From positions 1 to 20,534 of IMG/VR virus record IMGVR_UViG_3300013137_000133: a stretch of DNA of 20,534 nt; one strand, given 5' to 3'. The notes under the pieces were generated by a model that saw only the letters and a program-made list of their open reading frames with translations, searched no databases and was not told where the DNA came from. Position numbers and translations under genes: made by a program. This DNA is from a virus. Numbering within the stretch: position 1 is the first letter of the stretch; each line of letters begins with the position of its first letter. Below are positions 908-19,404 of this stretch, in pieces.

Positions 908-934
908 TTGCCCTCTTACCTCTAAAAATAACGC

Positions 935-962
935 TTGACAAACGATATACAATGTATATCAT
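935..962 (+). promoter_or_regulatory. Promoter of the plus-strand cassette
   Basis: A perfect -35 hexamer TTGACA lies at 935-940, followed 16 bases later by TATCAT at 957-962 as the best -10. The predicted transcript start (about 967-970) falls on or just before the ATG at 969, which has no Shine-Dalgarno sequence, so the first mRNA may be leaderless. It fires against the late operon. Confidence 0.6.
944..960. promoter_or_regulatory. Perfect palindromic operator GATATACAATGTATATC
   Basis: Two perfect 7-base inverted arms (GATATAC / GTATATC) are separated by AAT. The palindrome fills the spacer and -10 of the promoter at 935-962 and ends 8 bases before the RHH gene. This is the usual arrangement for autorepression by a dimeric ribbon-helix-helix protein. 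Binding by the adjacent product is inferred. Confidence 0.6.
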
Positions 963-968
963 ATAGCC

Positions 969-1133
969 ATGAAGAAAACGGAGCTTCTCCCCATCCGGGT
1001 CGATCCGGACACCAAGCGTATGGCCGTCGAAAAGTCTGAAGCGCTCGGCATCAGCATTTCGGCGTATATCCGCATGCTGATCCGCCTGGACAACCAGCGG
1101 GCGAGCGCCGAAGCAAAACGACGAGAAGAGTAA
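969..1133 (+). CDS. Ribbon-helix-helix (CopG/MetJ-fold) small regulator
   Basis: This 54-residue basic protein has the RHH layout: a short strand 'ELLPIRVDPDTKR' followed by two helices, 'MAVEKSEALGIS' and 'ISAYIRMLIRLD'. RHH proteins bind DNA as dimers and often repress their own promoters; many are antitoxins or plasmid copy regulators. The start is fixed by the strand being at the N-terminus. No Shine-Dalgarno is visible, and the predicted transcript start is almost at the ATG. It is the first gene of a three-gene plus-strand cassette between G and F of the late operon. It could be an antitoxin or only the cassette's autoregulator; neither downstream product is a recognised toxin. Confidence 0.75.
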   Translation: MKKTELLPIRVDPDTKRMAVEKSEALGISISAYIRMLIRLDNQRASAEAKRREE

Positions 1134-1144
1134 CAGGAGAAGCC

Positions 1145-1456
1145 ATGTGGGTTTTCACCAACAGGGGTTTTGTCTCCATTGTGGAGAATCGGGACGATCC
1201 GGAAACGATGGTCGTCCGATCCCGCTTTGCCGGGCACATCAAGAGCCTTTTCCCGAAAGCGAAGGTGCTCAAGACCCCGCAGGCGGACTATCTTTACCGG
1301 TCCTTCATTCCCCGGCCTCTCGTTGTAGAAAAGCTGTCGGAAGCGATTGAAGAAATCGACTATCCGAATTTCAAAAACTCCATCGGAGACGACCGGTACC
1401 ATGACGCCTGCATGGACGTGTGGTCGGCCCTTTACAGGCACCAGAAAAGGACGTGA
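1145..1456 (+). CDS. Conserved-looking hypothetical protein, cassette gene 2
   Basis: This 103-residue soluble protein begins 'MWVFTNRGFVSIVENRDDPE', an alternating strand pattern, and continues with 'MVVRSRFAGHIKSLFP' and 'KTPQADYLYRSFIPRPLV'; it ends in a helix containing 'YHDACMDVWSALYRHQ'. I do not recognise a named family. The mix of charged and aromatic residues and a good ribosome site (AGGAG, 7 bases before the ATG) make it a real gene. It starts 11 bases after the RHH gene and is followed after 3 bases by gene 3, so the three should be co-transcribed. A function in host interaction, regulation or immunity is only a guess from position. Confidence 0.7.
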   Translation: MWVFTNRGFVSIVENRDDPETMVVRSRFAGHIKSLFPKAKVLKTPQADYLYRSFIPRPLVVEKLSEAIEEIDYPNFKNSIGDDRYHDACMDVWSALYRHQKRT

Positions 1457-1459
1457 ACA

Positions 1460-1750
1460 ATGGAACAGAACGTCTTGAAAAAACGCTATGAAGCATTGAC
1501 TCCGCTTCCGGAAACGGCAATCGGTGACTACACCTGGGTCGACCGGCTTCGCACCTGGGAGGATTTTCTTGAAAAAGGGAACATGGTCGCTGTCGGATTG
1601 CGTCAATTGAAGATCAGCGCTGCCGATTATGCGAGTTTTCGTAACCTGGCTCCCGAACTGCACGATCTCCTCCTGGAGGCATTTCCGGTTACGCCGGAGA
1701 TTCAGGCGGAACTCGATGAATGGAAGGCGGAACTCGGTTTTATCGAATAA
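1460..1750 (+). CDS. Hypothetical acidic protein, cassette gene 3; candidate immunity protein
   Basis: This 96-residue protein is acidic and predicted helical ('KKRYEALTPLP', 'WVDRLRTWEDFLEKG', 'EIQAELDEWKAELGFIE'). It has no signal peptide, membrane segment or recognised motif. AAGGA lies upstream of the ATG. Its 3' end overlaps the 3' end of the MuF gene by 11 bases, tail to tail. In MuF-type polymorphic toxins a small immunity gene commonly sits next to the toxin's 3' end, usually on the same strand. Size, acidity and position would suit such a role, but the opposite orientation and the shared RHH promoter differ from the usual case, so the idea is inference only. Confidence 0.65.
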   Translation: MEQNVLKKRYEALTPLPETAIGDYTWVDRLRTWEDFLEKGNMVAVGLRQLKISAADYASFRNLAPELHDLLLEAFPVTPEIQAELDEWKAELGFIE

Positions 1751-3959
1751 CGCTTGCACTGGCCGTCCTCCCAACAACTACGTATTCAGACTCTCCCTTG
1801 CCGTAATGCATGTATTTCACGCCTTGATAATAGGTTTTGACCGTGTCTTCGACCCGGACAGACATCCGGATGCATTTTGACCCTCCGAATCCGTTGACTT
1901 TCACGGTCACTGACTGCACCGAATTCCCGGAGAAGGAACCCTTCTTGAAATTCGTAGCAAACTCGCCTTTTGACATGAACCTGACCGCCGGGATCTCCTC
2001 ATAGCCGTGCAGCCTCCTCATGAGGTACTGCTGAAACTCGTACTCCGCGTCGAGGAGTGAAAACACCGTCTCCTGCGGCAATTTTGCTCTCTGAAAAGAA
2101 AGGCGCGCCCCGTTCGTCAAACCGGAAATGACCTCCTCGCGGGATGTCCGTCCAGAATGGTATTTGGTAGACTTTCCAAACCTGGATTCAGCCCACAGCT
2201 TGATGGTCGCGCCACCTTCTGAAGAGGAACTGTATGACCATTCTTTGAACAGGTTTCTCAGCACTCCCCGTCCCCAATTGTGAATGTTCGCCATCGCATA
2301 GGCTTCGAACTTCCCGACCAAAGCCTCAACGTCCGTGAAAAAGTGGCTTTCTCTGGCCCCATTGATCAGGCCATTGACCTCGTTCGGCTGCCAGCGGGCG
2401 ACGCCCCATTTTTTGAACTCATCAAGGTGCTTCCCGAATCCCTGGGGCACCAACTTGTTTTCCAGATCGTAGCGGTCGATCAGCGCCTGGCGTCGTTTCC
2501 AAAGGGTCTCCGTAAGGTCGGATACTTCATCCTTCGCAAACCCTGCCTGCTCAAAAGCCTTTTTCACGTCCGTCTTTTTCAGCTTCAGCAGTCCCTCGGC
2601 ACCGTCCCGCTCCAACCATGCATTCTTGTCGAAAATGGCATTGAAGACGGATGCGGATTGGCGGTTCAACTGAGCATCCCGCAACGTCTTCACCTCGGCA
2701 GGGACGGCTTCATAGGCTTTCGATCCCCCCTGGGCACGATATTTGAAGCTACCCCCGGCATCGATCATGACCAGGCGTCCATTCTTGGCGAGCATGACGT
2801 TGTCGAATTCCAGACCAACCACGTCCCAATTCTTGGTGAGCACAGAGGCTTGGAAGATCTTCGCCATCTCAGCGGGGCGACTGACCATGTCGGCGGCGCT
2901 CATGGCCTTCAAATCCGTCCGCCACTTACTCACCAGGGCCAGTTTCCCGTTCCAGTCACGAAGGGTCAGTTCCGGCATCTCAACGCCGAGCATCTTGTGG
3001 ATCGCATTGGAGGCGAATTCCGTTCTGGCCTGGCCTTCATCGGCATACAGCTTGATGTAATATCGCTGCTTGTCCGGGGCCTCATAGAGCCCGCCGGGAT
3101 TCGACCCTTTCTGTCCCTCGACCTTTTTCCAAAGAGCAGTATCGTCAGCCGATGCCTCTGCTTTCTTTTCCTTTTTCACCGTGCTGCGGATTCTTCTGGC
3201 GACCTTTGCCGCCTCCTTGTCCTTCGCCTCGATCTCCTTGATCAGGGCCTGAGCGATGTCGTCTGGAAGCCTCGCCAGGGACCCTTCCAGGATGCCGTAT
3301 TTCGCCTGGGTCGCCGTCCCGACGTTGTATCCCCAGCCTTTATCGATCCCGACCGGCTCTCCCGTCTTTGGATCGATGGGCGAGGGAGGCGCTTCCCCTG
3401 TTCCTCCCGCTTTTGCCCTGTCAAAGTCTTCCTTCGTTGCCGCGAAGATCTTGCACTTGCAACCCCAGCCGTTCGGCACGTAATGCGTCTTCCACCAGGG
3501 ATCGTCGTCGGGAAGGGTGATTCCGTCCCAGGCCAGATGGTGGGGCCTGGGGATCCGACTGTCGCCGTGGCGGTAGGTCAGATAGCCGTAAAATTTTCTG
3601 ACCTCGGGATCCTGAAGCTGCTGCCACCGCCCTGCGGCATAAGACGTCCGGATGTTGGTGGAATAGATGACCTCGCTCCTCCAGTTCCGTCCGCCTTTGT
3701 AAGCCCAGCCGTGCTTGGAGATAATGTTGTCGAAATCCTTGCGGAAATCTTCCAGGGTGATTCCCTGGGCAATGGCCTTGTCCACGGCGGCCCGAAAATC
3801 TGCCAGGAGATCTGCCTTATAGGCTCCCGCAATCATGAACCCCTTTGCGTGCTGGTCCTTCCACAGATCCGTCCACTTCTGCGTCGGGATGTTCAGCTTG
3901 TTTTTAAAGAACGATTCCTGCTCCACAAAGGGCAGTTTAAAAACGGTTTCGATGGTCAT
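1740..3959 (-). CDS. F: MuF minor head protein with kinase-fold and ADP-ribosyltransferase-like extensions
   Basis: This protein has 739 residues, much longer than a plain MuF protein. Residues 1-180 are the Mu F / SPP1 gp7 head-morphogenesis domain, ending in the hallmark 'RPHHLAWDGITL...WWKTHYVPNGWGCKCK' (about 138-170). After a charged linker (240-275), residues about 285-410 look like a HipA/PI3-4-kinase-type fold: 'GGLYEAPDKQRYYIKLY' (K303), E314, 'NWDVVGLEFDNVML' (D379, D386-N387) and 'VMIDAGGSFKYRAQGG' (D400). The last about 140 residues end in beta strands with a 'GESEYVVVG' ExE motif (E723, E725) preceded by 'AVRFMSKGEF' and 'GSFSGNS', which fits an ADP-ribosyltransferase. MuF proteins sit at the portal and some carry toxin tails, so the extra domains may be delivered with DNA. 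The start abuts the portal stop (TAA-ATG). The MuF call is firm, the kinase fold probable and the ART tentative. Confidence 0.85.
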   Translation of the reverse strand: MTIETVFKLPFVEQESFFKNKLNIPTQKWTDLWKDQHAKGFMIAGAYKADLLADFRAAVDKAIAQGITLEDFRKDFDNIISKHGWAYKGGRNWRSEVIYSTNIRTSYAAGRWQQLQDPEVRKFYGYLTYRHGDSRIPRPHHLAWDGITLPDDDPWWKTHYVPNGWGCKCKIFAATKEDFDRAKAGGTGEAPPSPIDPKTGEPVGIDKGWGYNVGTATQAKYGILEGSLARLPDDIAQALIKEIEAKDKEAAKVARRIRSTVKKEKKAEASADDTALWKKVEGQKGSNPGGLYEAPDKQRYYIKLYADEGQARTEFASNAIHKMLGVEMPELTLRDWNGKLALVSKWRTDLKAMSAADMVSRPAEMAKIFQASVLTKNWDVVGLEFDNVMLAKNGRLVMIDAGGSFKYRAQGGSKAYEAVPAEVKTLRDAQLNRQSASVFNAIFDKNAWLERDGAEGLLKLKKTDVKKAFEQAGFAKDEVSDLTETLWKRRQALIDRYDLENKLVPQGFGKHLDEFKKWGVARWQPNEVNGLINGARESHFFTDVEALVGKFEAYAMANIHNWGRGVLRNLFKEWSYSSSSEGGATIKLWAESRFGKSTKYHSGRTSREEVISGLTNGARLSFQRAKLPQETVFSLLDAEYEFQQYLMRRLHGYEEIPAVRFMSKGEFATNFKKGSFSGNSVQSVTVKVNGFGGSKCIRMSVRVEDTVKTYYQGVKYMHYGKGESEYVVVGRTASASVIR

Positions 3960-5597
3960 TTAGACCCCCGTCTCATCCTTGACCTCGGACATTCCCGCCA
4001 TTTCCGCCACTGCCATCGCCCGTGCGATCAGCACGCCGAGATCTTCCGGGTCCATTTCTCCCCAGAGATCAATGATCCGATCACGCAGATCCGCGAGGTC
4101 CCGAACATTCGGGTTGTCGATAAGGCGGCGGACCTGGTGCATATAATGGGCATCGGTTATGACACCCGCTTCGTCCGCCAAGCGGTTGTTGATCAGGTCC
4201 GCATCGTCAATTTCGCCTTCTAAGGCGTCTTCTCCCGTCTTGGCTATGATGACCCTCATCCCAGGGCGTTCGCTCGACACGGGCTTGTTTTTGGCCGACA
4301 GAGGGGCCTTTTTGCCTGATGGTTCGGGTCTGGCATCACCGAGAGGCGTCTCCCCGGACTTCGGCAGGGGAATCTTGAACCGGTCGGAAACGTGTTCGGC
4401 AGACATGGGCTGCCCCATTTCGCGAAGATTCTTGTAGACGGTGCTCAACGCTTCCAGGTCCTCCGGAGGTTCGAACATGATCTTGAACCAGGGCAGAGGC
4501 TTGTCCCATCCGAAGTTATAGCCAACCAGGGGGCGCACGATCTGGGACCGAATCGTCTTTTCAATCGCCTGACAATCGGCCTTCGTCAGATCCCTGCGGA
4601 CCCGGTCCTGAGCGTCTTCGTTGCCCAACTTTCCGGGCGTTCCTTCCGTCGTGGCTGTCTGCCCGAGGATGGCCTTCGACATCTGCCGGTCGCAGAAATT
4701 GGACAGGGCCTCGTAGATGTTTTCCGTCCCGGCGTTCTTCATGGCCTGGACAAACTCGATTTCCGTGCTCTTGGAGATGATCCCGGCAGCATCGGAGCCC
4801 AATGACTGGATTGCCGACACCAGGGCGCCCTTGTCTTCCTTGCTTGCGCCAGGATCATATTTACCCAGGCGAAGAGGCATGCCGAAAACCTCGGAGAAGG
4901 CCACCCAATCTTTCAGGGAATAATTCTTGAACAGGTACATCCAGGCGCATACCCGCAAGACGCCAGCACGGGTGTCATAGCCGGATCTGGCTTTGTATCG
5001 ATGATAAACCAGCTTGAAGGGCGGCATGATCTCCCCGTACACGGGCTCCGCTTCGGTTACGACGCGGGGTAATTCAAAGCTCTTGGCCCACATGTCACCA
5101 CCCCGGTCATAGAAAACGGCTTTCTTGGGGTGGATCCAGGACAGTCCTCCGATGACAGCCTTTCCGCCGTCGATCTTCCAGAGGATCTCGCAGAGGGAAT
5201 AACCCTTGCCGATGGCATCGAGGAGGTCCAGCAGGGCATCGTCAAAACTGTCGAGGTTAAAAATGCAATCGGAGACAAAATCCCGAATCTTCTTGTCCTC
5301 GGCAGATTCCGACCATGCCGTCAGATCGTAATCCAGTCCCAGGACCGCGTTTTTCCTCGTCTGAAGCTCCGAAAAGAGATGGGTGTCCTTCTCCTCCATT
5401 TCCTCGAATAACTCAGCCTGCCGGTAAACGTCGCCCCCATCGGCTTCTTTGAAAATGTCGGCCAGCCGCTGAGGCGTAAGCCCCTGGCTCGGATAGGACG
5501 ACCAGCGATCCCGGATCGTTGTCACGGCAATCTCGCGGGTCTCCGGTTGTTTCATGACCTTAATATCTTTGCCAAATTGATCGTATAGGATTGCCAT
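3960..5597 (-). CDS. Portal protein, Mu gp29-like (DUF935)
   Basis: This 545-residue protein matches the DUF935 portal family. Recognisable stretches are 'LADIFKEADGGDVYRQAELF', 'EEKDTHLFSELQTRKNAVLG', 'SLCEILWKIDGG', 'WVAFSEVFGMPLRLGKY' and 'ILGQTATTEGT'. Portals form the dodecameric ring at the capsid vertex through which DNA is packaged and to which the tail joins. The ATG at 5597 shares its A with the terminase stop (TGATG); a GTG one codon earlier is also possible. The stop is directly followed by the MuF start. The C-terminal acidic tail (about 430-545) is typical of the family's variable end. Confidence 0.92.
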   Translation of the reverse strand: MAILYDQFGKDIKVMKQPETREIAVTTIRDRWSSYPSQGLTPQRLADIFKEADGGDVYRQAELFEEMEEKDTHLFSELQTRKNAVLGLDYDLTAWSESAEDKKIRDFVSDCIFNLDSFDDALLDLLDAIGKGYSLCEILWKIDGGKAVIGGLSWIHPKKAVFYDRGGDMWAKSFELPRVVTEAEPVYGEIMPPFKLVYHRYKARSGYDTRAGVLRVCAWMYLFKNYSLKDWVAFSEVFGMPLRLGKYDPGASKEDKGALVSAIQSLGSDAAGIISKSTEIEFVQAMKNAGTENIYEALSNFCDRQMSKAILGQTATTEGTPGKLGNEDAQDRVRRDLTKADCQAIEKTIRSQIVRPLVGYNFGWDKPLPWFKIMFEPPEDLEALSTVYKNLREMGQPMSAEHVSDRFKIPLPKSGETPLGDARPEPSGKKAPLSAKNKPVSSERPGMRVIIAKTGEDALEGEIDDADLINNRLADEAGVITDAHYMHQVRRLIDNPNVRDLADLRDRIIDLWGEMDPEDLGVLIARAMAVAEMAGMSEVKDETGV

Positions 5598-7129
5598 CAC
5601 CAGACTCCCTGCTGCGCAGCGAAGCGCCGTTTGTTGACAGTTTCGTATTCAACGGGACCCGATTCTCCTTCCGATGTGGCAAACCAGGCCAACGCTCCGG
5701 CAACTCCGGAATCTCCATGCCTCTGCTTGTTGTCCTTGCCTTTCATCTTCGCTTCGGGAGGTTTCGCCACTCCGCGCACGACCTTGAAGAACCGATGATC
5801 CTCGATAATATCGGCGTCCTTTGGAAGCAGGATGGACCGATCCTCGAAGGCCGATTTGTATTTTGGCATGTGTTCCCGGTACCAGGTCTCGCTCAACATG
5901 ACCTGGGCGATGCGCGAGGCTCCGTATTTCTGCATGGCCACTTCCGCCAGATACTGGCCGTTTCCTCTCGCGTCGAGCGCTCCGTAACGGAACCGGGGAA
6001 GGCGGTCGACAATATAAAACAGCACCTGTTCCTGCTGTTTGAACGGGATGTTTCGGAGTTCCACGATAAATGGAGCACGGAATGTGGCTGATTGCTGCTC
6101 GCAAAGAGGCGTGATGACCGTCAAGTCACCCGTCCGACCGAAGTCCTCCCCGAAATAGGAGGCACGCTTGGCATCCAGTTTTATCAAGAAGGGTTTCAGG
6201 GTCTCATCGCACCAATCTTTCACTTCCGCGTAGCGGATGTGATCGGCGATCTCGGCAAACGCCTTCGATTGCTCATAACGGATGACCGGGATCTCATCGG
6301 AGAGGCAGGTCTCGATCAGCGCACGGGTCAAAAAGGTTCCCGTTCCCTGGCTCGGGATGCAGAAAAGCTCTTCATCGGCATCCTCGCCGTAGGAATCGAT
6401 CATTCCTTGCCGCCAGGCCGCCTCTCCCTCTTCAGTCCATTCCCGGCCCAGGACCTCGCAGATCCTCCGGTAAAGACCGTCCTGCAGGGCAGCATCAAAG
6501 TCCACCCGATGGAGGCTGTACGGCTTCTTCCCGCCCCGGATATCCTGGATGACGGAATTGAATTCGTTGACGTCCCCGAAGTGCGTGCTGATGACTCGGA
6601 CCTGCCCGCCCCACATAAGGAGGGCCATCGCCGCCTTGAGCAGTCCGGCCAGATCGTCATGGAACGCGGCTTCATCGATGACCACACGGCCCTGCTTACC
6701 GCGAAGGTTAGTCGGTCGGCTGGAGAGCGCCGTGATCCGCCAGCCCGATTCGAGGGTGATCTTGTAGGCCAGAATCTTCTTTTCCTGGACGATTCCGCCG
6801 ACTTCCTCTTCGTCAATCTCCTCGTATTCCTCCATCGCCGACGCGGCCAAGTTATAGGCCCGCGCCCAGTTGGCGCAGTCGTTGATGAATTCGAGGGCCA
6901 TGTCCTTCGTATAGCCGATGTACCAGACGTTCCGCTTCTCGCCGTTTCCGGCTTCTGAGGCGTAGAGGGTATCATCAGCAGCCTCAGCCCAAGAAATACC
7001 GACACGGCGCGATTTCTCGATGAATTTGACCGGAGATTGATCGGCGACCCAGCGGGTCTGATAGGGCAGCAAAATGCCCGTGGCGGGTCTCGCCTGGTCA
7101 AAATCGTTCTGGAGGTTCACTTCGGTCAT
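5597..7129 (-). CDS. Terminase large subunit, Mu gp28-like
   Basis: This 510-residue packaging ATPase/nuclease pumps and cuts DNA at the portal. The ATPase half shows the non-canonical P-loop of Mu gp28-type terminases, 'EKSRRVGISWAEA' (about 38-50), a Walker B 'GRVVIDEAAFHDD' and a coupling-type segment 'VRVISTHFGD'. The nuclease half has acidic positions in 'YFGEDFGRTGDLTVI' and 'YGALDARGNGQYLAEVA'. The frame is open to 7252, but those first 41 codons read the preceding gene out of frame and are low-quality basic sequence. The ATG at 7129 overlaps the small-subunit stop by ATGA and begins the conserved protein. Confidence 0.93.
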   Translation of the reverse strand: MTEVNLQNDFDQARPATGILLPYQTRWVADQSPVKFIEKSRRVGISWAEAADDTLYASEAGNGEKRNVWYIGYTKDMALEFINDCANWARAYNLAASAMEEYEEIDEEEVGGIVQEKKILAYKITLESGWRITALSSRPTNLRGKQGRVVIDEAAFHDDLAGLLKAAMALLMWGGQVRVISTHFGDVNEFNSVIQDIRGGKKPYSLHRVDFDAALQDGLYRRICEVLGREWTEEGEAAWRQGMIDSYGEDADEELFCIPSQGTGTFLTRALIETCLSDEIPVIRYEQSKAFAEIADHIRYAEVKDWCDETLKPFLIKLDAKRASYFGEDFGRTGDLTVITPLCEQQSATFRAPFIVELRNIPFKQQEQVLFYIVDRLPRFRYGALDARGNGQYLAEVAMQKYGASRIAQVMLSETWYREHMPKYKSAFEDRSILLPKDADIIEDHRFFKVVRGVAKPPEAKMKGKDNKQRHGDSGVAGALAWFATSEGESGPVEYETVNKRRFAAQQGVW

Positions 7130-12949: not shown

Positions 12950-13600
12950 TCACAAACTGCTTTTGATTTTTCTGCACTCCTCAACCAAGTCGCCCAAGCG
13001 GGATGCCAGGGTTTTCAGGTTGGAAAGCGTCTCCGCATCGATCCGCTCGATCGAAAAAAACTGCGCGGCGATCTCCCGCATTTCGTTCATTGCCGCGTCG
13101 AGATCCCGGGTCTTGCTCTGGGACCTCATGACCGGCCAGTCGTCATTCACGAGGTAGCCTTCCTCGCCGATGTAGAGCGGCGCATAGGCCGTCTCCGCCA
13201 CCTGGACGCGGCCCTCCTGGCGCACGACGCCTTTTTCCAACAACCATCCCAGGTACTTCTGGGCCGTGTAGAGGGCGCACCCGGAAAGCTCGGAGATCCT
13301 GCGGGCCGTGAAGGGGTTCCCGTTCTTGGACCGCATCCACATGACGCGCTGCATGACGCGCTGCGTCTTGCAGTAGTCGCTCTCCGGTCGGTCGGCGATG
13401 TAGCGGAACATTCCCCGGTTCACCCGCTCGCACTGCCTCGCCTTCATCAGATCGCAGACGGCCCTATGGACGCGGTTGTATCCGGCCTCACCGGAGAGGC
13501 CGATCAGGTCGCGGATCTCGGTGACGCGCAGCGGCGCCGTCGCGGTTTTCAGGGCGTCCCGCACTCTTCCTTGCGTGCTCAGGGGGTTTTGCGTCTTCAT
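12950..13600 (-). CDS. Two-winged-helix DNA-binding protein downstream of B
   Basis: This 216-residue protein seems to hold two winged-helix units: 'VRDALKTATAPLRVTEIRDL' with 'YNRVHRAVCDLMKARQCERV' and 'GMFRYI' as wing (about 12-68), then 'FTARRISELSGCALYTAQKY' with 'LGWLLEKGVVRQEG' (about 97-130). The C-terminal third is helical with 'MNEMREIAAQFFSIERIDAE'. Its start overlaps the B stop by ATGA, so it is made from the transposition operon. It may regulate early transcription or help replication; the target is unknown. Confidence 0.78.
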   Translation of the reverse strand: MKTQNPLSTQGRVRDALKTATAPLRVTEIRDLIGLSGEAGYNRVHRAVCDLMKARQCERVNRGMFRYIADRPESDYCKTQRVMQRVMWMRSKNGNPFTARRISELSGCALYTAQKYLGWLLEKGVVRQEGRVQVAETAYAPLYIGEEGYLVNDDWPVMRSQSKTRDLDAAMNEMREIAAQFFSIERIDAETLSNLKTLASRLGDLVEECRKIKSSL

Positions 13601-14373
13601 GATGCCGTCTTTCCCAGGACCCGGATCGACTTCGGGTCCCTGGCGCCGTAAAGGCGTTTCGTCAAGTTTTCCGCCTTGTTGACTGCCACGTCGATCATCT
13701 TGCCGCTGATCGTTCCGGTGGCGTTCGTCCGGCAGGCCTCTTCCAGGGTGAGCAGGTACCCGACCAGGTACCGGAAATCTCCCTCGATGTAGCGGCCGAG
13801 CAGCTCCGCCGCCTCATGACCGATGGCCAGGCCGGTCCATTCCTTGGCGATCATGATGATTTCCGGCGTCGATACCGGCTGAAACTCGACAATTCCGGCT
13901 GGGAGTATCCGGCTAAAGAAGTGGCCGTGTTTCTGGAGCTTGCCGTGGATCGATTCCATGCCGATCAGGATGATCGGGACCCGGGTCGCGTCGTGAACGT
14001 CCTTGATGATGTTCAGCATCCGGCCGCCGGCATTGAACAGGTAGTCCGCCTCATCGATAAAAAGCGGCTTGCCCCAGCGCCGGAAGCCGTTGATGACCTG
14101 GTCGCAGAGCCGGTCGAGGCGGTAGACCGGGTCGCCGACCTTGGCGATCGCGCACATCTCCTCCAGGAGGCGGCGCGTGTTCCAGGTTTCCATCATCCGG
14201 ACATAAAAGGTGTCCGACTGGCCGTAGAAGGCCTCGACGACCTCCGTCTTTCCATAGCCCCACTTGCCATAGATCAGCCCCAGGCCGGCGAGGGAAGGGT
14301 CGCGGTGGACCAGGGCGTCAACCGCTGCCGTCACTTTGTTGTAATTGTCGGTCCGGATAAAGGTCTTATTCAT
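13597..14373 (-). CDS. B: Mu B-like AAA+ transposition activator
   Basis: This 258-residue ATPase has Walker A 'GKWGYGKT' (36-43) and Walker B 'PLFIDEAD' (103-110), followed by sensor-type 'VPIILIGMESI'. In Mu, B forms ATP-dependent filaments on target DNA, selects target sites, stimulates A, and gives target immunity. The N-terminal helix-turn-helix domain of Mu B (312 residues) is absent: the P-loop starts at residue 36. The gene overlaps A by ATGA, and the two are surely co-expressed. Confidence 0.92.
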   Translation of the reverse strand: MNKTFIRTDNYNKVTAAVDALVHRDPSLAGLGLIYGKWGYGKTEVVEAFYGQSDTFYVRMMETWNTRRLLEEMCAIAKVGDPVYRLDRLCDQVINGFRRWGKPLFIDEADYLFNAGGRMLNIIKDVHDATRVPIILIGMESIHGKLQKHGHFFSRILPAGIVEFQPVSTPEIIMIAKEWTGLAIGHEAAELLGRYIEGDFRYLVGYLLTLEEACRTNATGTISGKMIDVAVNKAENLTKRLYGARDPKSIRVLGKTAS

Positions 14374-16754
14374 CGTTGCCCTCCTGCCAGGTATTTTTCG
14401 TAGTCGAGGTGTGCGTCGTATAACTGTTTGGATTCCAGATACATCTGTGATGATTCAAACTCTTCCCGGAACGTCTGCTGCGCCGGGGTCAGCTCGCGGC
14501 CGCGGGCCAGCTTCGGGATGATCTGCCCCCGATACCGGTCGGGCCGGGTGATAAAAACGAGCTCGTCGTACGGGTCGATCGAGGGAAGGGGAGGGGGCTC
14601 GGCGGTGCTGTCCGGACTACTGTCCATTTGTACAGTATCCGGCATCTCCATCGCCTCCCCCTGAGTCAGGGCCAGCAGGGCCGCGGTTTCGTCGCCGGCC
14701 TCGGCCTCGGCCTCGGCTGCCGCCGCCTCAAACACCCGGATTTTCGCCTTTGCGTCCCGCTTCTGGAGGGCGGCGATCCTCAGCTTGTCGATCATGGCCG
14801 GATCGTTCGGCGTCACAAAGGAGGCCCGATTCAAGGGTCTGCCGTCGCAGACGTATTTCCCGTCCCGGTAGATCCGGAGCGTCTTGTAATCGAAGTCGTA
14901 GAAGACCGCGACCCGGGTTCCGATCAGGATATTGAGTACCCTGGCGCCCTGGAGGTTCACGGGCACGGCCAGCTCGAACTCGCGGCCGTTTAAGTTGAAG
15001 CCCCAGTTGTGGACCGTCACGTTTTCCTTTTTCATGAGCGCGAAGTCGAGCAGGGCCGGTTCCACGGTCGAAGGCTCCGGCATCATGGAGGTAAACGCCT
15101 CGGTCGGGGTCATGCCGTTCATGCCGTGGCCCCGGTGGCGCGTCTTGTGATAGACGTTCACGACCCAGTCGTAGAACCGGGAACAGAATTCCTCCAGGGT
15201 GAGGATCGCGTTCCCGGACCGCAGCTCAAAGGCGAGCTTCTCCGGACGCTGCTCGTGGCCTGAGCCGCACCACCCGGGAAGCTCCCGGGAAAAGGACTGC
15301 ACCAGGGTCCGGTGGAACCGCTCGACCGGCTTTGCCCAAGGGTGGTAAACCGTCGCGTAGCGCTGGCCGATCCCCAGGCGGGCATAGACGCCGCCCACCC
15401 GCACGCCCTTGACCTGGTGCGCGCGATCCCCGCGCTTCTTCACCCAGATCTCCTCTTCCGCGTCGTACTCCAGGTCGATATAGAAGGGGTCGATCCCCAG
15501 GGCCGCGTAGCGCTCCATGATGTCCGGATAATCGATCTTGCCGATGGCGATCTCCTCGCCATTCAAGTATTTGGATTTATAATCCTTTCCATTGTCGATG
15601 TAGACGGAGGAGGGGAGGCCGTGCTGGGGGAAGTTCGGGTCGTTTTTCGGCATGATGGCATGATGCAGGGCCATCGCGATCGTCCGGGAGTTCGGGGCAA
15701 AGGAGATGCACCATCCCATGAGCGAGCGGGTGCGCATGTCCATCCAGGAGGTCAGCCAGGGCCGCCGATAGTTCCATCCGCCCTTGCCGTTGGGCAGCTT
15801 CACAAAGACATCGAAGATGTGATGATCGCCGCAGGACATGAAAAGCGGCGAGATCTCGTCATAGTTGCGCAGGATCTTGACCAGCCGGTCGGCCTCGAAG
15901 GCCTTTTCCCCATGCCGCGCCAGGGTGGCCGTGGATGGGTCGAGGCGGTTCAGGTAATTGAGCATCGTGGCGTAGGTGCCTGTCTTCCATCCCTTTTCCT
16001 GGGCCATCTTGAGGGTGAGCTCATAGACCTGGGATTTGTTGCGCATCTCCCCGGAGGCGTACAAAGACATGGCGTAGACCACGGCGTCGCTGTCATAGGC
16101 GACCACCCGGTCTTTCGTCCGTCCGTGCTTAGGCGCGAGCGCCCGGATCTGGGCCATGATGGTGTCGCGCCCTTCGGCTTGGGCCTCCTTGATGGCCGCG
16201 TCGGCCTTCTGCAGGTAGCGCAGCAGGCTGTGGGGGTGGCAATCGACGCTCTTGGCGTACTCGTTCAGCGCGGCGTCGCGGCCCCGGCCTGCCTTGCCCC
16301 TGATCTCGCGCACCCGGTTGACCAGGAGCAGGATGTCATAGCCCTTGTTGCGGCAGGATTCGGCCAGGTCGTTCCAGGAATCTGCCTCGTAGGAGATCGG
16401 GGCGACATCCCCGACGATGCTGCGCATGGTTGGTGGCAAGGAAGGGGGGCGGACAGCCGGGACCGGCGCCGGGGAGTCGCCGGCATCCCCGTTGATTCCC
16501 CCTTCCTTATTATATATGTCACTTTCAGGGGAGGGGAGGGCGGTTGACGTATCCTTATTATATGTGGGTGGATGGGCGACCAGCCAGCGGTTCTGAAAGT
16601 CCGCCGGGAAGCTGTGCAGGAGGTATTCGTACCGCTTGCCGGCCCGGATCCGGGCGACGGAGCGCTTTTTGATCCACTTGTCGGCTGCTTGCTGGGTTAC
16701 TCCCAGAACGCCCTTGACATCGTTGATGGTCAATGTCTGTTCGCCGTCCGCCAT
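14370..16754 (-). CDS. A: Mu A-like DDE transposase
   Basis: This 794-residue transposase cuts and joins the phage ends for integration and replicative transposition. The N-terminal 'LTINDVKGVLGVTQQAADKW' (8-27) resembles the Mu A/repressor DNA-binding domain that reads the internal enhancer. The end-binding region spans about 125-270. The RNase H-fold core has D310 ('CGDHHIFDVF'), D387 ('VYIDNGKDYK') and E478 ('WAKPVERFHRT'), and a beta-barrel domain follows at about 575-640. It is longer than Mu A (663) through a Pro/Ser-rich linker (62-110) and a C-terminal Ala/Glu-rich insert (675-725) before the B-contacting tail. The gene starts 9 bases after the preceding stop. Confidence 0.95.
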   Translation of the reverse strand: MADGEQTLTINDVKGVLGVTQQAADKWIKKRSVARIRAGKRYEYLLHSFPADFQNRWLVAHPPTYNKDTSTALPSPESDIYNKEGGINGDAGDSPAPVPAVRPPSLPPTMRSIVGDVAPISYEADSWNDLAESCRNKGYDILLLVNRVREIRGKAGRGRDAALNEYAKSVDCHPHSLLRYLQKADAAIKEAQAEGRDTIMAQIRALAPKHGRTKDRVVAYDSDAVVYAMSLYASGEMRNKSQVYELTLKMAQEKGWKTGTYATMLNYLNRLDPSTATLARHGEKAFEADRLVKILRNYDEISPLFMSCGDHHIFDVFVKLPNGKGGWNYRRPWLTSWMDMRTRSLMGWCISFAPNSRTIAMALHHAIMPKNDPNFPQHGLPSSVYIDNGKDYKSKYLNGEEIAIGKIDYPDIMERYAALGIDPFYIDLEYDAEEEIWVKKRGDRAHQVKGVRVGGVYARLGIGQRYATVYHPWAKPVERFHRTLVQSFSRELPGWCGSGHEQRPEKLAFELRSGNAILTLEEFCSRFYDWVVNVYHKTRHRGHGMNGMTPTEAFTSMMPEPSTVEPALLDFALMKKENVTVHNWGFNLNGREFELAVPVNLQGARVLNILIGTRVAVFYDFDYKTLRIYRDGKYVCDGRPLNRASFVTPNDPAMIDKLRIAALQKRDAKAKIRVFEAAAAEAEAEAGDETAALLALTQGEAMEMPDTVQMDSSPDSTAEPPPLPSIDPYDELVFITRPDRYRGQIIPKLARGRELTPAQQTFREEFESSQMYLESKQLYDAHLDYEKYLAGGQR

Positions 16755-18660: not shown

Positions 18661-19404
18661 ATGTCAAGAGAAAAAACTGTACAAGCTGAATTATTTTCAG
18701 ATCGCCTAAGGCTGCTAATGATTTCTTTAGGATATCAAAATAGGCAGGATGCCAAGTTTGCGAGGCATATCGAATTTAGCACCGGATTTTTGAACGATAT
18801 TTTAAATAAAAAATCAGGACCTTCGGTTGATTTGATCGCTTGCATCATGAAGAAATTCCCAGACGCCAACATCCGCTGGCTACTGACGGGTGAAGGTGAT
18901 CCCATCATCAAGACGCCCGACATCGTGATCGAGGCCCACCCCAGGGTGATCCCTCTCGGCGAAAATATCCCCACGCCTTCCCAGGATGACGAGGGAGAGT
19001 ATCTCGCCGTCCCTCTCGTGGAGGGAAAGATCGCTGCCGGCCCTGGCCGGATCGTCAAGGAGGACATCCATTCTTTTGTCTGGGTCTACCGGCCGGAGAT
19101 CGGCAAAAGGAAAAACCTGGTGGCGGTGCGGATCGGCGACCAGGAGAGGTCCATGCTGCCGACACTGCCACCGGGATGCATCCTTATTGTTGACAGGAAC
19201 GACAAGGAGATCTCCCGAAAGGGCATCTATGCCGTCCGGACGGGAAGCGACGAATGCGCGGTGAAGCGGGTCCACGTCTTCGACGGTCATGTCCTCCTTT
19301 TTTCAGACAACCCGGATTTTCCCCCCTTGATGGCGCCGACGACCGATGTCGATCAACTGGTGATCGGTCGGGTGATTTGGACATGGAAAAGCCTCATCCG
19401 CTGA
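18661..19404 (+). CDS. c: Lysogeny repressor, LexA/S24 self-cleaving type
   Basis: This 247-residue protein has an N-terminal helix-turn-helix region (about 12-75, 'SDRLRLLMISLGYQN', 'KFARHIEFSTGFLNDILNKK', 'ANIRWLLTGEGDP') and a C-terminal S24 peptidase domain. The cleavage site is likely Ala126-Gly127 ('EGKIAAGPGRI'). The catalytic Ser164 ('ERSMLPTLPPG') and Lys202 ('CAVKRV') have LexA-like spacing. It should hold the prophage silent and be inactivated by RecA after DNA damage, unlike the Mu c protein, which is not LexA-like. It is divergent from ner and is transcribed toward the left end. No Shine-Dalgarno precedes the ATG. Confidence 0.92.
   Translation: MSREKTVQAELFSDRLRLLMISLGYQNRQDAKFARHIEFSTGFLNDILNKKSGPSVDLIACIMKKFPDANIRWLLTGEGDPIIKTPDIVIEAHPRVIPLGENIPTPSQDDEGEYLAVPLVEGKIAAGPGRIVKEDIHSFVWVYRPEIGKRKNLVAVRIGDQERSMLPTLPPGCILIVDRNDKEISRKGIYAVRTGSDECAVKRVHVFDGHVLLFSDNPDFPPLMAPTTDVDQLVIGRVIWTWKSLIR

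Follow-up and report, generated by a model that had tools for sequence, protein, structure and literature searches.

Polymorphic toxins built on MuF head proteins, MuF proteins ending in an ADP-ribosyltransferase (ART), and layouts with two immunity genes are already known (PMC5576092, PMC11699363, PMC12226406), and for both Apk2 and Bxa, two immunity proteins are encoded beside the MuF toxin (PMC12226406, PMC11699363). We have analysed a 20.5-kb virus record, IMGVR_UViG_3300013137_000133 (20,534 nucleotides (nt), hereafter the window), in which the gene for the F-like minor head protein encodes a MuF domain followed by a HipA-like kinase domain and a DraT-type ART tail. Directly behind F and convergent with it lie three small plus-strand genes, for a ribbon-helix-helix (RHH) protein and for two orphan proteins of 103 and 96 amino acids (aa), termed s103 and s96. 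We consider it likely that F acts as a MuF-type polymorphic toxin carried in the phage head, combining a kinase with a DraT-type ART and having one guard for each enzyme. In the open-access texts on MuF and polyvalent proteins, we did not find the DraT-type tail, the HipA-like kinase or a guard operon on the opposite strand.

The head protein F and its domains

F and its domains are located in the window as follows.

1740..3959, minus strand: F-like minor head protein with a putative toxin tail, 739 aa, in the order MuF, HipA-like kinase, DraT-type ART
3447..3797, minus strand: MuF domain, residues 55-171 (PF04233, E 1.2e-12)
2460..3137, minus strand: HipA/CtkA-like kinase domain, residues 275-500 (conserved residues and AlphaFold2 fold)
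1740..2462, minus strand: DraT-type ART tail, residues 500-739 (PF07357, E 4e-10)
1770-2258, minus strand: Pfam DRAT core of the tail, residues 568-730, with R660, S683-x-T685 and E723-x-E725

The initial annotation had described a 739-residue frame at 1740-3959 with an N-terminal MuF domain. The frame is real, but its coding strand is the minus strand (3959 to 1740), and the plus frame there is ridden with stop codons; the MuF domain is borne out by the Pfam match. In addition, the PHROG profile 'minor head protein and DNA pilot' matches residues 3-274 of F (E 1e-80). The gene resembles those of MuF polymorphic toxins in that it directly follows the portal gene, joins a conserved head part to a C-terminal tail that varies (in the sister phage L007, the MuF part is about 89% identical and the tail is replaced) and has a small open reading frame (ORF) of less than 150 aa at its 3' end, namely s96, though on the opposite strand. 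Searches of PDB sequences with the complete protein and with profiles of the kinase and of the tail yielded chance matches only, and scans with NCBIfam and PADLOC gave nothing useful.

The kinase domain shows a GSNPGG loop, K303, E314, NWD379, DN387, D400xGG and RAQG, and no Pfam, PHROG or NCBIfam model matches residues 275-500 of the window protein. A tblastn search at E <= 1e-9 found related domains in 19 phage records, and a profile-driven scan found them in 561 viral contigs. Invariant features of nine diverse members are the GSN loop, K303, E314, N377-W378-D379, D386-N387, D400-x-G-G and R-A-x-G. The kinase-like set of K303, E314, D379, N387 and D400 that had been proposed for this protein is thus conserved, and it is kept at 90% or more in 67 members. 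The AlphaFold2 model of residues 270-739 (predicted local distance difference test (pLDDT) 90.8, predicted template modelling score 0.91) found CtkA, RIO1 and HipA as its best PDB matches, in agreement with the suggested kinase fold; the match to Helicobacter pylori CtkA (3akl) had E 1.5e-5 and a match probability of 1.00, and that to HipA had E of about 1e-3. Pfam HipA_C was matched at E <= 0.1 by 27 of the 67 members, with a best value of 8e-4 that is sub-threshold; the curated cut-off was not reached (14.2 against 30.5 bits in L014), and the window's own protein had no match. The ATP loop, Lys, Glu, catalytic Asp, Asn and metal-binding Asp are all present. The fold and active-site layout are HipA-like, and the family is unnamed in the libraries searched.

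The C-terminal ART with an ExE motif, expected from the initial annotation, matches PF07357 (DRAT) at residues 568-730 with 39.7 bits against a curated cut-off of 25, and a match over the cut-off also occurs in four further genomes. The tail can be aligned with a cellular DraT from Rhodobacter, whose gene adjoins draG. Nine phage tails and this cellular DraT all share K587, H601, R660, E723 and E725, and the S-x-[TS] pair (S683, T685) is kept as well. Judged from its sequence, the ART can accordingly be specified more precisely, as DraT-type. The combination R-S-ExE is the pattern of arginine-directed ARTs. As in ARTs, the AlphaFold2 model places R660 within one strand and E725 where another begins. 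PF07357 was found in 30 of 395 genomes of one phylum, with near-full-length profile matches in 26 of the 30 and short fragments at frame or contig ends in three; the sole MuF-tail case (G002) is a low-score match to profile positions 83-250 only, in a 754-aa frame.

The pairing of kinase and ART on one chain had been called unusual, which turned out to be wrong. Among 80 kinase-bearing contigs examined for tail type, 42 encode the kinase and a PF03496-type ART in the same ORF, six have a DraT tail, 18 a third tail, and 14 another or a truncated one. The third tail is a conserved C-terminal region of about 330 aa (for example in L024, L040, L041, L042, L059, L069 and L088) with the motifs HH..., RRG, GGASYxFTR, NETxFKxxLSxFD and WPDGRxL. 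It had no significant Pfam match in L088, the sole member scanned, and looks ART-like by eye, so it may be an ART of another class. The kinase-ART protein of Yersinia phage fHe-Yen8-01 is annotated as 'ADP-ribosyltransferase toxin' and noted as particle-associated, and further annotated examples occur in Pseudomonas phages Jeremy and Touem01 and Enterobacter phage phiT5282EW. In three phages with large virion ARTs, a NUDIX gene stands between the kinase-ART gene and s103 (L010, 8191-9009; L012, 8227-9075; L015, 8192-9055), and in L014 a NUDIX domain, the kinase and the ART are fused in one protein.

Variants of the gene itself were also observed. Two near relatives (L002 and L003, contigs 3300037046_000210 and 3300038679_000219) have an in-frame TAA at the K284 position, between MuF and kinase, while the kinase-DRAT part remains an open frame of 449 aa beside an intact guard operon; a frameshift was considered and rejected, as the DNA shows the in-frame stop. 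Four bacterial contigs with a MuF-kinase-DRAT gene (L104, L105, L106 and L107) come from metagenome-assembled genomes of Deltaproteobacteria (two), Beggiatoa and Porticoccaceae, each genome with one PF07357 match.

The opposite-strand operon and its exchange with the tail

The three small genes, which the initial annotation did not mention, and their control region are arranged as follows.

935..962, plus strand: sigma70-type promoter TTGACA-N16-TATCAT, 11 of 12 consensus positions
944..960, plus strand: near-palindrome GATATACAATGTATATC over the spacer and -10, candidate RHH operator
969..1133, plus strand: RHH protein, 54 aa, candidate autorepressor (PF21983, NikA-like, E 2.2e-6)
1145..1456, plus strand: s103, 103 aa, orphan family, candidate partner or guard of the kinase domain
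1460..1750, plus strand: s96, 96 aa, orphan family, candidate ART immunity protein
910..3318: exchangeable cassette of tail and opposite-strand operon, replaced as a block in sister phage L007

The tail and the operon exchange together as one 2.4-kb block. L007 and the window share 90% nt identity at 2-909 and 3319-6918 and have no match between these segments; in place of window 910-3318, L007 has a stretch of about 610 nt that encodes a different tail and lacks all three small genes. The L007 gene (2964-4082) joins the same MuF part to a different short tail, which by eye resembles the PBECR/MuF-C nuclease type and has no significant Pfam match.

On the one hand, s96 accompanies the DraT tail. 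Its 3' end overlaps that of F by 11 nt, and it stands tail-to-tail with a DraT-tailed gene in 12 of 12 distinct loci and was found nowhere else; these loci include heads with only 19-34% MuF identity (L103, L022, L105 and L100). Scanning viral contigs with s96 gave nine loci, each with a DraT tail, although one 4.4-kb fragment holds only the last 37 residues of the tail. On the other hand, s103 accompanies the kinase: it occurs in eight of 50,697 phage records, all eight kinase-bearing, and in IMG/VR the kinase lies within 8 kb in 47 of 80 s103 loci, with 16 of 31 other s103 loci having it elsewhere on the same record. The two genes can also be arranged differently. In L103 and L107, s103 is on the toxin strand, divergent from s96, whose position is unchanged; the start codons of the two genes overlap in CATG there (about 6998-7000 in L103 and 7853-7856 in L107), leaving no room for an intergenic promoter.

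The identities of the two small proteins, regressed on MuF, kinase and DRAT identity over the 12 DraT loci, follow different domains. For s96, the coefficients (beta) were 0.96 for DRAT, 0.18 for MuF and -0.13 for the kinase (R2 0.91), and for s103 they were 0.95 for the kinase, 0.19 for DRAT and -0.22 for MuF (R2 0.90). The partial correlation of s96 with DRAT given the kinase was 0.90 (permutation p 0.0002) and with the kinase given DRAT 0.14 (p 0.26); that of s103 with the kinase given DRAT was 0.72 (p 0.0016) and with DRAT given the kinase 0.43 (p 0.04). The link of s103 to the kinase recurs in 31 further loci, which have PF03496-type ARTs: its partial r is 0.62 with the kinase (p 0.001) but -0.16 with the ART. 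This dissociation of s103 from the ART in two independent sets is a stronger point than the p values. The locus L020 is 79% identical to the window in the kinase, but 41% in the ART and 36% in s96.

The control region is conserved as well. The -35 element is kept in 10 of 10 aligned RHH-bearing loci, and the palindrome core ATACAATGTAT in eight of 10 although the upstream flanks diverge strongly. The RHH protein is 66-96% identical across related loci and matches PF21983 over its cut-off (RelB at E 0.003); a mobilisation role like that of NikA was rejected, because the match covers the N-terminal half only, which indicates a generic RHH protein. The operon is a candidate for autorepression by this protein. 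The AlphaFold2 model of s103 has a pLDDT of 94.5. Its size and the layout had suggested a relative of HipS, an idea that we rejected, as s103 has no PDB sequence or fold match.

By gene content, the window belongs to a Mu-like temperate phage, with the following genes.

1-384: I protease, cut by the window edge
389-952: G
3960-5600: Mu-type portal gene (PF06074, E 5e-105)
13597-14373: TniB/MuB-like ATPase
14370-16754: Mu-type transposase
18661-19404: S24-type repressor

GemA, Gp27 and terminase are also encoded in the window. The Mu-type transposase, the B-like ATPase and the S24 repressor agree with the temperate lifestyle of phages that carry MuF polymorphic toxins.

Proposed function and its alternatives

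Two protein-modifying activities on one head protein, as the initial annotation had suggested, are the best reading of the predicted domains, because F has a MuF chassis, a kinase fold with active-site residues and an ART with ExE. From known MuF proteins, we expect that the MuF domain puts F at the portal, from where it would enter the next cell with the DNA. The kinase and the R-S-ExE ART would then act in the host, the predicted target of the ART being arginine in a host protein. The opposite-strand operon, with its own promoter and a putative RHH autorepressor, would provide protection through s103 for the kinase and s96 for the ART. Because the operon is independent of late transcription, a lysogen could produce the guards with the toxin gene switched off, and may in this way be shielded from leaky expression, from its own late burst and from sister phages that infect it. 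We consider that s96 very probably neutralises the toxin. For s103, we lean slightly towards the same role, the main alternative being a chaperone or packaging function. More tentatively, with doubt and belief nearly in balance, the GSNPGG...NWD...DxGG...RAQG kinase family and s103 may form an undescribed toxin/guard pair of lytic and temperate phages, joined here on one head protein with an independent DraT-ART/s96 pair; the RHH-controlled operon on the other strand would then serve an injected toxin with two effector parts, each with a guard of its own.

Several observations weigh against this proposal. Neither s96 nor s103 resembled a known immunity protein or a solved structure in sequence and fold searches. 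ART folds are absent among the listed PDB fold matches of the model; because these were all kinases, the case for an ART fold comes from the Pfam match, the conserved residues and the order of the strands. The candidate guard s103 is missing from the DraT-tailed L020 and L022 despite their kinase, so it is not obligatory, and Gordonia phages have the kinase without s103. It also occurs in lytic phages, where lysogen immunity is impossible, and it could be a chaperone or packaging factor. Two of the 10 loci (L100 and L105) lack the palindrome core. Finally, co-evolution was assessed on small sets of 12 and 31 loci, and significance may be inflated in partial Mantel-type tests.

The injected kinase-ART may instead retune the host for the phage, like T4 Alt, and be no anti-competitor toxin; the small genes would then spare the lysogen or limit superinfection. 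We regard this as a serious contender, with a little less than an even chance of being correct. Kinase and ART are combined in the same way in large virion proteins of phages that seem to be lytic, outside any lysogeny context, and host retuning of this kind is how known injected phage ARTs work (PMC9503650, PMC5512222). However, every DraT-tail locus has a dedicated convergent partner that is exchanged with the tail, which is the layout of a polymorphic toxin. The toxin and take-over roles overlap, considering that an injected enzyme can be both toxin and helper. It is also conceivable, though we rather doubt it, that the kinase regulates the ART as a cis-inhibitor, an activator or a phosphorylating switch, with s103 as a chaperone or co-factor and not an immunity protein. 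Kinase and ART share one chain at similar spacing in most loci, and s103 not only tracks the kinase but is also encoded on the toxin strand in lytic phages, L103 and L107. Nevertheless, at least two unrelated tails, and probably three, are found on this kinase, and in L020 the closely similar kinase is paired with a much more distant tail; a fine-tuned cis interaction is less likely for these reasons.

The remaining alternatives concern single parts of the locus. The similarity of the kinase-like domain to HipA is distant and sub-threshold, and its D379-x7-N387 spacing is unusual, as might be seen in a pseudokinase or in an enzyme using the kinase fold for another reaction such as AMP transfer. 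We consider this unlikely, since loop, Lys, Glu, Asp, Asn and Asp are retained across the 67 diverse members as in an active ATP-using enzyme. The small plus-strand genes, with their own promoter and opposite orientation, have features typical of morons, and could be ordinary ones inserted between head genes and unrelated to the tail; yet s96 occurs only with DraT tails, across unrelated heads, and the identities of s96 and s103 track specific toxin domains and not the MuF backbone, which makes this very improbable.

Comparison with known systems

If the toxin reading is true, the DraT machinery of nitrogenase regulation has been recruited as a phage-injected toxin. A HipA-like kinase domain present in hundreds of phage contigs without a Pfam or PHROG family is now described, and two orphan small-protein families gain a testable role, one for each toxin domain, for which tail swaps and the loss of s103 are natural experiments. 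Putative MuF immunity genes can also occupy the strand opposite the toxin, where a search for same-strand downstream ORFs would miss them.

The phage tail has in common with DraT the C-terminal ART core and the R, ExE, K and H residues, but it matches only profile positions 83-249 of 256, and it is fused to MuF-kinase in a head protein and has no draG neighbour, so it is not a full-length stand-alone DraT beside draG. The kinase fold is shared with HipA/CtkA, and the set of a repressor, a partner of about 103 aa and a kinase resembles HipB-HipS-HipT (PMC10627512). Unlike HipBST, the repressor here is RHH and not helix-turn-helix, s103 has no HipS match, and the kinase is fused to MuF and ART. 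Polyvalent proteins also include kinase domains in injected multidomain phage proteins; those are described as members of the protein-kinase superfamily without the C-terminal subdomain, from Verrucomicrobia-Chlamydia and Bacteroidetes, and HipA is not mentioned (PMC5512222).

Among MuF polymorphic toxins, Apk2 likewise has two immunity genes (IapK and Aph1), but it carries a single activity, as a (p)ppApp synthetase, with immunity genes described as following apk2 and neither a kinase nor a DraT domain (PMC12226406). Bxa of a Bacteroides prophage, with the immunity proteins BAH and Bsi, is likewise a MuF-ART protein in the head region of a temperate phage, with two small partner genes beside the toxin and proposed head delivery, as here (PMC11699363). 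No kinase has been described for Bxa, whose two guards, one of them an ADP-ribosyl hydrolase, are both directed at the ART (PMC11699363). In our locus, neither s96 nor s103 matched an ADP-ribosyl-hydrolase Pfam family, and the proposed guards are no recognisable hydrolases, track different domains of the toxin and share the opposite strand with an RHH repressor.
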